A model generated the notes under the pieces. The model had not been told where the DNA came from, did no database searches, and saw nothing but the letters and a program-made list of their open reading frames with translations. Shown in pieces: positions 57,101-60,396 of a DNA stretch of 64,000 nucleotides. Source of the DNA: Hyperoplus lanceolatus (lineage: Eukaryota > Chordata > Actinopteri > Uranoscopiformes > Ammodytidae); contig CM049403.1 in the NCBI GenBank assembly GCA_026929865.2, positions 23,926,001 to 23,990,000 on the forward strand. The letters are read 5' to 3'. The position numbers and the translations under genes were made by a program. The first letter of the stretch is position 1. Every line of letters starts with the position of its first letter.

Positions 57101-60100
57101 CAAATACCTCAAGGCAGCACCCTGCAGCTTCTTCTATTAACTATGTACAGGTTACCTTAAGGCAATGACATTCATCACCAGGGGTTATAATTGTATTTTT
57201 ACATAGATGCTATAAATATATTGATGTCTGTTGAAGCAAACAACCCTGTTCCTCCTATCTGCTGCCAGCTGTCACAGACAGAAGTAACTCCTTAAATCTG
57301 AGCAAGATAATAATAGAATATTAATTGTCAGACCAGGTTGAGATCTACTTTTATCAAGACAGGGCAGTTTGGATCACAAATCATAGATTTCGGATCAATG
57401 TGGTGGCAAAATCAGCCGTTGTCCATCTTTGAAACGTTGAAATTAAAAACCCTTTGAGACATACTGTCTTACTCTTTTATCTTATGTTGATTCGATCTAA
57501 AAATAACTACCTCAACACACAGAGGAGTACATATGTCTTCTTCTTGTTTTGGATTCAGAAAACCCTCTGTGTACTGAGTTAAGTACCTTGGTTGTTGATG
57601 CGGACGTTCATGGGTAACTGAGCGGACATGGCCAGCAGGTTGTGTTGCAGCGCTCTCTGCAGCAGTCGGTGGTGTTCCTCGGCCGGCAGCGCCATCTTCT
57701 TCTCCGGCGGCTCCCCGGCCTCCAGTTTGTCCCTCAGCTGCTCCAGAGCCGCCACCTGAGCCGCCATCGCTGCATGAGCTGCTGCCGCCTGCACAGCAGC
57801 CACTGAGTGACCGGCCATGGACCCCGCCGACATACGAGCCATACCCAACCCGGGAAGGCCTCCCTCCTCTTCTGACCAGACACCACACAAGAGGGAGAAA
57901 TGGGGTCAACTTCAGGCAGGCAAACTGAAGTACAACTGGATGTGATGAAGGCTGAAGCACCATGTAGATTTACATTCCTCCCTTTCCACACAGACCGTAA
58001 AATAACTGGTTAATGAGACACACTTTTTATTACTCACTACTGCTTAAGATCCCCCAAAGTAGAGAGAACAGCAAAAATTAAACATGAGCTGAGGAAGTAA
58101 AATCATTTGAAACTCAAGGTTTGAGATTACAATTAAAGAAGACTATGTTCATGTATGTTAAAAATGGTGAAAGGTGAATCCCTTGTGACGTGAGCGCAGC
58201 ACAACATACAAATCTCACCTCTCTTGATCTTCTGGATGGGGGTGAGCGGGGACCCGTTGGTGCCAAATGTGAGGCCCATACTGCTAGTGGGGATTTTGGG
58301 CGAGGAGAGCATGGTGGGCGTGCCGTTGGGCGAGTAGGTGAAGAGGGAGCTGCCGAAGCTCTGACGTCGGCCCTCCCTCCGATTGCTGTCGATAGCTGCC
58401 TGGAGCTCGTTGGGGTTGCTCAGACTCCTCTTATCACATTCATACGGGTACAGGTACTTCATGTATCTGGAGGTAAAACCATGCATACAGGTTTGATTAA
58501 AAGCTTGTTAACCGAAGTTTCTCCTCCTTGGAGTTTAACAGACATGAAGGGTTAGGGTCTTACTATCAAGATGCATTGTGGGAAGTGTATAATCTATTGT
58601 TTTCAGAGTTTCACCAATAACAGAGACTAAAAGTCAGGACATCTCGGTCTCTGATGCCATATTTGGACCATTTGTTGATAATATGTCCCTCAAAACCTCA
58701 AACTTTATGAAAGAACAATACTTAAATGCTCGAGGACCATTTAAACACTCAGTAAGTGTTCCCAGTTGATCAGCTTTTTATCATACAAGATATAGTGCGA
58801 TAGACTACAACTTGAACAACAATCCAGACAAAATAAAAACCACAGTGTGTGTGTGTGTGTCTGTGTGTGTGTGTGTGCGTGTGTGCATGGGAACTGACTG
58901 TGTGCGGAGGGTGAAGGCTGCACTGGTGATTGAGGTAGGCAGGTTGAGTCCCTTAGTGATCTCTCTCCACAGTTTCTTGTTGATGACCTCCACCAGGCCT
59001 CCCTTCTCTGTCACCAGCCTGTAGAGCATGTACAGATCCAGGACCTGCTTGGCCATAATGGGAATACGATTCACCGGGGTTCCTTGAAACACACACACAC
59101 ACACACACACACACACACACACACACACACACACACACACACACACACACACACACACACACACACACACACACACACACACACACACACACACACACAC
59201 ACACACACACACACACACACACACACACACACACACACAGTTTTTTTTCTTCAAACTACAGTAGTGATGGCAAACCACATATGAGACGTAATCAATAATT
59301 ACAATTTAGTATTAATCTGTGACAAATGTCCATTTCCCAGAAGAGAACATCGAAGCCTTCATAAATCTTTGTATTAAATCATTATCATTTAAACACTGAA
59401 AGATGCCTTTGTTTGACATAAAACAAGATCCATCCTCGATTTTAACATTTAGGAGTGATGCCTCAATTATAGGTACGACCTGCAGATGGAGCTCTCAGAT
59501 TCTCAGTGCCTGACTTGGCAGACCCTACACTGTAAACATTTAGTGTTGGTTTTCCAGTTGGGAGCATATGTCTGTTCTCTCCCGTGCCAAACACTGTCAA
59601 GCTGATCTGAAGCCAATCGGTGAATTTCACAAGACAGTTTGGTATTTAAAAGGGAGTAAACATCTCAAATGATGCAATTTTGCACAGCTTTTCCAGGAAG
59701 GACAATGAGTTGTTTGCATGATGAGAATGGGAGCTTATTTGGCTCAGTGTGAAGACCCTGTATGTATGTGTGTGTGTGTGTGTGTGTGTGTGTGTGTGTG
59801 TGTGTGTGTGTGTGTGTGTGTGTGTGTGTGTGTGTTTAATGGGGTTAGAAATGTGGGTAGGGCCTTGTGGACAAGCGTCAGCGATGGTAAGGTAAACCAA
59901 TCCATTCCGAGGCATTGATACGATGTGTCCCATTCTAGTTATAGCCTGGGAACGACGCAGGGGCTGTGCAACCATAAAGCAATCATCTCCGATGTGAATA
60001 AAGACCCCACCCATGTGAGTGAAAGAGGAGTAGATGGTGCTGTGTCATATGTCAGAGAGATACGGGTGGGGGGAGGGGGTGATCAACCTTTTCTATATGC

Positions 60101-60396
60101 AACTTTAAAGCGTCTCTTTATGAATCTGACTGACAGAAAAGCAAAAAGACATACTCAGATAAGAGAATAAAATTCATAGATGTAGCTATGCTATCCTGAG
60201 TGAAATTAGGCTTTCACACACACACACACACACACACACACACACACACACACACACACACACACACACACACACACACACACACACACACACACACACA
60301 CACACACACAAACAGTTGCATACCTCTTTTTTGCATGAAGCTGAAGAGGTCATCCAGAAACTCTTTTCTCTTCGGGTCTCGATCCAATTCATACAG
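54139..60396 (-). CDS. arid3a: AT-rich interaction domain protein 3A, 3' six coding exons; 5' part outside the window
   Basis: Sequence-specific nuclear DNA-binding factor (Bright/Dril1). Exons in transcript order: 60396-60324, 59082-58899, 58466-58219, 57871-57587, 56397-56308, 54284-54139; phases agree (1026 bp, 341 aa plus stop). The first two and a half exons give most of the ARID domain: LYELDRDPKRKEFLDDLF, IPIMAKQVLDLYMLY, EKGGLVEVINKKLWREI, then YMKYLYPYEC and NPNELQAAIDSNRREGRRQSFG. The REKLES region follows: an alanine-rich stretch, LEQLRDKLEAGEPPEKKMAL, SRQDSALNLT and ISMSVELNGVVYTGVLFAQ. The tail is Ser/Gln-rich. The closest recalled match is human ARID3A rather than ARID3B or 3C. 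The exon carrying the expected EEQFKQ before LYELD was not found up to 64000, so the N-terminal exons lie further right. The intron inside the ARID domain is framed by (TG)n runs. Confidence 0.93.
55291..56244. mobile_element. hAT-like non-autonomous transposon, copy 2 (in the last arid3a intron)
   Basis: Ends TAGGGCTGTCAAAATTA and TTTGACAGCCCTA are inverted; subterminal GCGTTAACGC and TTAATCGTGATTAATC motifs match copy 1. Flanks are both A-rich (near-identical 8-mers TAAAAAAA and ATAAAAAA). A (CA)n tract expanded inside. Its right end is 63 bp from the exon at 56308. Confidence 0.8.
55736..55876 (+). repeat. (AC)70 microsatellite inside hAT copy 2
   Basis: 141 bp of uninterrupted AC. Copy 1 has only a short interrupted CA stretch at the matching place (near 14120), so the tract grew after the copies separated. 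Confidence 0.98.
58845..58886 (+). repeat. Interrupted (GT)n tract next to an arid3a exon
   Basis: Short GT-rich stretch 13 bp or more beyond the donor of the exon ending at 58899 (minus strand, so CA-rich in the transcript). Confidence 0.9.
59089..59239 (+). repeat. (AC)75 microsatellite at the arid3a splice acceptor
   Basis: 151 bp; in the transcript it is (GU)75, ending 6 bases before the exon that starts at 59082. It takes the place of the polypyrimidine tract. Confidence 0.99.
59767..59835 (+). repeat. (TG)34 microsatellite, mid-intron, opposite orientation
   Basis: 69 bp; reads as (CA)n in the arid3a transcript, between two (GU)n tracts. Confidence 0.98.
60215..60310 (+). repeat. (CA)48 microsatellite near the arid3a splice donor
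   Basis: 96 bp; (UG)n in the transcript, starting about 13 bases after the donor of the exon that ends at 60324. Confidence 0.98.

Follow-up and report, generated by a model that had tools for sequence, protein, structure and literature searches.

A microsatellite-lined intron inside the ARID domain of the arid3a gene of Hyperoplus lanceolatus is probably spliced in an unusual way

Results

An arid3a intron with GU runs near both ends

The window analysed here, a stretch of 64,000 nt, contains the 3′ part of an arid3a gene on its minus strand. Joining exons 60396-60324, 59082-58899 and 58466-58219 gave upon translation an open frame without a stop, and a domain search of the three-exon product recovered the Pfam ARID domain (E = 1.1e-25). 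The first 120 residues of this product give gap-free alignments with the ARID3A structures 2kk0 (E = 3.9e-73) and 4ljx (E = 1.2e-72), which we take to be those of the human protein, and both exon junctions fall in stretches identical to 2kk0. The open frame, the ARID match and the position of the junctions in these identical stretches together indicate that the exon boundaries are right. Judged by its translated sequence, the gene is the predicted orthologue of ARID3A, with the intron at 60323-59083 splitting its ARID domain. An earlier, sequence-only reading of this DNA had proposed that skipping of the 184-nt exon shifts the frame, and translation confirmed it: without this exon the product reads KRDT followed by a stop, i.e. 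the stop comes after two new codons.

Table 1. Coordinates of the features of the arid3a locus in the window. Bit scores come from general weight matrices, not fitted to this species.
Feature	Position	Strand	Basis
arid3a exon, 73 nt, start of ARID domain; donor GAG/GTATGC, 7.88 bits	60324..60396	-	frame, structure alignment; weight matrix
Intron inside the ARID domain, 1241 nt, GTATGC...TTTCAAG	59083..60323	-	sequence
UG5: perfect (UG)48, 96 nt, intron positions 14-109	60215..60310	-	sequence
CTAAC motif resembling a branch site (A 59845), 10 nt upstream of CAmid; ranks third among the 295 intron adenosines scored	59844..59848	-	weight matrix
CAmid: perfect (AC)34, 69 nt, intron positions 489-557	59767..59835	-	sequence
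Nearest region for an ordinary A branch point without folding	59248..59268	-	weight matrix
GU3: perfect (GU)75, 151 nt, intron positions 1085-1235, 6 nt from exon	59089..59239	-	sequence
Acceptor end TTCAAG, 3.13 bits, rank 8 of 47 intron AGs	59083..59088	-	weight matrix
arid3a exon, 184 nt, ARID core; weak donor ACA/GTCAGT, 2.85 bits	58899..59082	-	frame, structure alignment; weight matrix
CAdown: imperfect CA run, 20.5 units, from position 14 of the next intron	58845..58885	-	sequence
Next arid3a exon, 248 nt, end of ARID domain and beyond	58219..58466	-	frame, structure alignment
Further arid3a exons	57871-57587, 56397-56308, from 54284	-	motif and reading frame

The intron had also been described as a donor followed by (UG)48, (CA)34 and (GU)75 and then the exon, an order that proved correct to the base, coordinates included, when the sequence was read again. 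We refer to these three perfect runs as UG5, CAmid and GU3 (Table 1). A further run, CAdown, lies after the next donor and had been overlooked; the 184-nt exon is flanked by a GU run (GU3) on one side and by a CA run (CAdown) on the other.

Placement of AC/GT arrays relative to splice sites

The window holds 11 AC/GT arrays, one of which sits in a transposon-like element within another arid3a intron (55292-56243). Three of the 11 arid3a splice sites considered lie no more than 20 nt from an array, and at least as many did so in none of 100,000 randomisations, in which the 11 arrays were placed outside exons and which take account of random placement only, not of regional microsatellite clustering. 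At least three arrays fell inside intron 60323-59083 in 0.067% of the random placements. When perfect runs only and a 15-nt limit were considered, two splice sites were matched (0.04% of trials), and five of the runs fall within 1,810 bp (0.055% of trials). Such a pattern is unlikely to arise from random placement, yet it is not unique; zebrafish is said in PMC6093180 to have GT/AC runs commonly close to its splice sites.

These counts bear on a reading based on neutral drift, according to which AC/GT microsatellites expanded near the splice sites and are merely tolerated, splicing relies on signals in the exon and on a distant branch point of no special kind, and pairing plays no role. We consider it rather unlikely. 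It draws on the frequency of arrays in the window (n = 11, with the one inside the transposon-like element among them) and on the general knowledge that microsatellites mutate fast, but it has to contend with the absence of comparable outcomes among the 100,000 placements, although these take no account of regional clustering, and with the fact that GU3 exactly fills the space usually taken by the tract and the branch point.

An acceptor with almost no pyrimidine tract and no nearby adenosine for a branch point

GU3 occupies the position of the polypyrimidine tract. The claim that this acceptor has nearly no such tract agrees with its composition, as the segment from -25 to -4 contains 59% pyrimidine compared to 86% and 68% at the two neighbouring acceptors, and the UG run is followed by UUUC only. 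Adenosine, the base at which branches usually form, is absent from -4 to -158, the last 158 nt of the intron holding A only at -3 and -2. The A-free stretch measures 155 nt (59240-59086, i.e. GU3 and its flank), and the AG-free zone before the acceptor measures 166 nt. A branch point formed by an adenosine can therefore be no closer to the exon than 159 nt upstream. Neither this A-free and AG-free zone nor the branch distance that it forces had been noticed in the sequence-only reading.

Branch motifs were also scored in four other arid3a introns (before exons 60396, 58466, 57871 and 56397), there over a span of 10-60 nt ahead of the exon, and the highest-scoring one lies at a distance of 29-42 nt. 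The top scores of these four introns are 4.2-5.0 bits, compared to 3.7 bits for the best motif among the last 420 nt of intron 60323-59083. With a slightly different matrix, the ten best of the 295 adenosines of the intron all lie at least 463 nt from the AG, and the three best (60052, 59878 and 59845) are all located upstream of CAmid. Closer to the exon, A 59265 scores 3.08 bits at a distance of 183 nt and A 59251 scores 1.66 bits at 169 nt. A 59265 is followed 9 and 16 nt later by two AGs, which precede GU3 and lie 173 and 166 nt before the end of the intron, and those found between A 59845 and the exon include the AGs at 59688, 59607 and 59480.

Both splice sites of the 184-nt exon are weak according to the matrices used (Table 1). 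The true acceptor ranks 1 of 22, 3 of 17 and 3 of 78 AGs in the introns before exons 58466, 57871 and 56397, respectively; in intron 60323-59083, seven AGs (60130, 59946, 60126, 59480, 59964, 59864 and 59607) outscore it. All seven lie between the runs. A masking of these decoys was nevertheless given no weight, because the runs reach to 14 and 6 nt from the intron ends, so that nearly the whole intron lies between them and the position of a decoy AG is uninformative.

A UG run adjoining the acceptor and followed by a short U tract, as in CFTR exon 9, is present at this site (...GUGUUUCAAG). For the (UG)m(U)n element of CFTR exon 9, a passage of PMC12171016 describes repression by TDP-43 bound to UG beside a weak tract. 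The arid3a exon resembles CFTR exon 9 in having a UG run beside a weak acceptor with few U before the AG, and differs from it in having a complementary CA run within the same intron; it is also not known to be skipped. By analogy, TDP-43 or CELF proteins on GU3 would repress the 184-nt exon as a function of repeat length, thereby tuning ARID3A via a frame-shifted, decay-prone transcript. Length-tuned skipping of this exon is possible, and the UG run beside the acceptor with only UUUC after it, the two weak splice sites and the stop two codons into the skipped product are all consistent with it. Two observations in human point in the same direction: AG-free zones of at least 150 nt are accompanied by cassette exons in 32.5% of cases (n = 197) compared to 19.8% overall (PMC1431707), and in the cortex the length of repeats shows associations with the binding of proteins, including one between GT repeats and TARDBP (PMC13174678). 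However, the 75 units of GU3 far exceed the 11-13 units of the CFTR alleles named in the passage of PMC12171016, and application of the CFTR rule to such a length would predict near-total skipping and loss of ARID3A. We regard this CFTR-like model as improbable.

Predicted pairing of the four runs

The mid-intron CA run had been said to be able to pair with either GU run. Duplex prediction supported this, with -142.0 kcal/mol both ways and loops of 379 nt for UG5:CAmid and 527 nt for CAmid:GU3; the complementarity of CAmid and GU3 spans 69 bases. When the transcript extends only as far as CAmid, folding yields UG5:CAmid (68.9 expected pairs), whereas in the intron alone, with GU3 present, CAmid:GU3 takes over at equilibrium (69.0 expected pairs). 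Once CAdown is included, the best fold is a nested state in which UG5:CAdown (39.9 expected pairs) encloses CAmid:GU3 (69 pairs). UG5 is further predicted to pair with the 184-nt exon, with 27.9 expected pairs before CAdown is made and 12.3 after.

The nested state was favoured over the alternative pairing with every parameter set, at ensemble energies of -640.8 compared to -628.8 kcal/mol (Turner, 37 °C), -756.7 compared to -743.7 kcal/mol (Turner, 28 °C) and -608.6 compared to -603.2 kcal/mol (Andronescu), all of which are model values that include neither proteins nor kinetics. The same holds for CAmid:GU3 alone against UG5:CAmid alone, with -582.9 and -567.9 kcal/mol (Turner, 37 °C; gap of 15.0), -693.9 and -677.7 kcal/mol (Turner, 28 °C; gap of 16.2) and -564.7 and -557.9 kcal/mol (Andronescu; gap of 6.8), respectively. 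The rows obtained with the 'Langdon' parameters were identical to the Andronescu rows, and the two were counted as one set. In these models, pairing among the four alternating runs is possible in two arrangements that exclude each other.

One could see in UG5, CAmid, GU3 and CAdown a two-state RNA switch that extends over two introns, UG5:CAmid forming first and then being exchanged, or not, for CAmid:GU3 within UG5:CAdown. The lengths of the runs, together with transcription speed or temperature, would set the state, and thus the branch site and the inclusion, skipping or circularisation of the exon. We hold such a switch to be very improbable; if it were true, the fast-mutating repeats would render ARID3A dosage heritably variable between individuals. 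The least probable of the readings considered here is a pairing that bridges the exon, in which GU3 or UG5 would join with CAdown, loop the 184-nt exon and favour its skipping or circularisation. GU3 and CAdown are indeed predicted to form 40 pairs (duplex energy of -78.5 kcal/mol, loop of 203 nt), and the best fold that includes CAdown nests CAmid:GU3 (69 pairs) in UG5:CAdown (40 pairs), but CAmid is a longer and perfect partner for GU3, and an important exon would be lost by looping-out. The literature matches listed yielded nothing on splicing or circRNA of arid3a.

As read off the sequence, the CAmid helix could gain two A-U pairs, up to the UUU at the acceptor. The register that would leave about 13 nt between A 59845 and the AG had a probability of 0.21 when the intron was folded by itself, 0.01 when both exons were added and 0.0001 for the longest transcript. 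A branch point at A 59845, at the foot of the stem, was rejected as the sole site given that this flush register is not robust and that the proximity of a motif is not rare; it was kept as one of two options.

Discussion

The intron inside the ARID domain of arid3a is probably spliced in an uncommon manner, similar but not identical to that of a known class of fish repeat introns. Its closest precedents are not limited to CFTR exon 9, the one named in the sequence-only reading: the nearest is the zebrafish class of AC/GT structured introns, and distant-branch-point exons and UG-rich acceptors activated by PUF60 are others.

For the AC/GT structured introns, the abstract of Lin et al. (2016, Genome Res) reportedly gives a share of 10% of genes, where the paper citing it counts introns. 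According to this citing paper, a (GT)n run ahead of the 3′ splice site pairs with an (AC)n run just downstream of the 5′ splice site in about 10% of zebrafish introns, thereby obviating U2AF (PMC6093180, citing Lin et al.). PMC7404189 and PMC9198270 likewise mention vertebrate AC-GT structured introns for which U2AF2 is dispensable. The arid3a intron has in common with them a long GU run, 6 nt from the exon, right before the 3′ splice site instead of a pyrimidine tract, as well as a complementary AC run in the same intron, with 69 pairs predicted in silico between CAmid and GU3. It differs from them in that its 5′ splice site is followed by UG (from position 14) and AC occurs only mid-intron (489-557), two GU runs compete for one AC run, and a second CA run comes after the next donor. 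Since the AC run after the 5′ splice site that defines the class is replaced by UG, we do not file the arid3a intron in it, although the intron may work like a member.

Another precedent is the class of exons whose branch points are distant and whose AG exclusion zones are long (Gooding et al. 2006, PMC1431707). The AG exclusion zone of 166 nt falls in the range of that class (100-150 nt or more), and with no A available from -4 to -158 a branch point, if it is an adenosine, would lie more than 100 nt from the 3′ splice site, as that class requires; unlike in that class, the zone is almost entirely microsatellite and not pyrimidine-rich, and 155 nt of it also lack A. In human exons activated by PUF60, the motif UGUGUGU is enriched, AG-free zones are longer and branch points lie further away, according to Kralovicova et al. 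2018 (PMC6093180), who also propose testing PUF60 on fish GT-repeat introns. In addition, UG-rich tracts have been connected with mutually exclusive exons that respond in opposite ways when U2AF65 or PUF60 is knocked down (PMC7969005, 2021). The arid3a intron shares the UG-rich sequence features of PUF60-type acceptors, but its run is perfect and 151 nt long. PUF60, an activator that prefers UG-rich tracts, is by this comparison at least as good a candidate reader of GU3 as the repressor TDP-43.

The explanation that we favour, and to which we give about an even chance of being right, is that of a variant of the teleost AC/GT-repeat intron with a displaced branch point and constitutive inclusion of the exon, in which GU3 serves as tract and spacer and CAmid:GU3 as a helper. 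The 184-nt exon would be included constitutively, GU3 acting both as an AG-free spacer and as a tract for a UG-binding recruiter of the U2 snRNP, for which PUF60 would be the best candidate. Pairing of CAmid with GU3, if it occurs in cells, would compact the 3′ part of the intron, and the branch point would lie either just upstream of GU3 (A 59265 or A 59251) or at A 59845, in the good CUAAC motif where the CAmid stem begins. The roles of UG5 and CAdown would be secondary, pairing with each other or binding CELF, TDP-43 or TIA proteins and hnRNP L.

Several lines of evidence were counted in favour of this explanation. The exon carries the ARID core, making efficient inclusion the likelier norm, and since skipping leads to KRDT and a stop, the acceptor presumably works without a pyrimidine tract; an acceptor this weak in front of a conserved exon argues in the same sense. 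The lack of A from -4 to -158 and of AG over 166 nt, together with the position of the motifs at 29-42 nt in the other introns, speaks for a displaced branch point. The 69.0 expected CAmid:GU3 pairs in the intron and the preference for CAmid:GU3 over UG5:CAmid in all parameter sets were counted in favour of the former as a putative helper. In fission yeast, structure between the branch point and the 3′ splice site may cut their effective distance (PMC9508853). The zebrafish introns and the PUF60-activated human exons were counted on this side as well.

Other points weigh against parts of it. The AC run starts only 488 nt into the intron, unlike in the zebrafish class, where it is at the 5′ splice site. 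For a branch point reached linearly, the AGs 9 and 16 nt past A 59265 would be met first, and A 59251 has a score of merely 1.66 bits. For a branch point at the foot of the stem, the AGs between A 59845 and the exon would need to be hidden by the stem, and the probability of the flush register falls as more of the transcript is folded. A rigid stem between a branch point in the loop and the AG could hinder and not help. Protein binding at the runs would compete with pairing. The predicted pairing of UG5 with the 184-nt exon, once this is transcribed, was counted against the favoured explanation as well. Lastly, a statement in PMC6883713 that structure at the 5′ splice site reduces exon recognition would argue against CAdown pairing being helpful.

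If the favoured explanation is confirmed, arid3a would contain a conserved exon for which a single perfect, fast-mutating microsatellite provides both the tract and the spacer between branch and AG, and each repeat mutation would alter the branch distance. The intron would provide a clean test of the idea, put forward in a passage of PMC6093180, that PUF60 may replace structure at the GT-repeat acceptors of fish, as well as a test of how the spliceosome crosses 155 nt without A inside a 166-nt AG-free zone. Its uneven geometry, with GU at both ends and AC inside, also raises the question of whether an AC run at the 5′ splice site is a requirement for the zebrafish class at all.

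A possible cryptic exon and an element-borne GT run in arid3a

The splice-site sequences suggest that the 1241-nt arid3a intron 60323-59083, which separates the 73-nt and 184-nt exons, may contain a cryptic exon. Using a weight matrix not fitted to this species, we scored its acceptor AG (60130) at 10.79 bits and its donor (60010) at 6.73 bits, both of which exceed the corresponding sites of the real 184-nt exon (3.13 and 2.85 bits, respectively). The intron 5′ of the 73-nt exon carries an imperfect GU run approximately 200 nt upstream of the acceptor of that exon, whose tract is strong (13.72 bits, same matrix). 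Upstream of the arid3a exons lies a GT array (transcript strand) that continues past the window edge, 170 bp of it being inside.

Coordinates of candidate exon, repeats and transposon-related features
Feature	Position	Strand	Pfam match
Candidate cryptic exon	60129-60011		
Imperfect GU run	60652-60594		
GT array at window edge	63831-64000		
Transposon-like element	55292-56243		
(GT) array, 149 bp	55728-55876		
DDE_3 transposase remnant	1782-2087	+	E 1.9e-06, 28.2 bits (slightly below curated cut-off, 28.6)
DDE_3 transposase remnant	21730-22071	-	E 3.7e-13

Both DDE_3 remnants are presumably Tc1-like. Further downstream, part of an arid3a intron is occupied by a transposon-like element whose terminal inverted repeats read AGGGCTGTCAAA / TTTGACAGCCCT; since the 149-bp array sits within this element, at least one long GT run in the region is element-borne.
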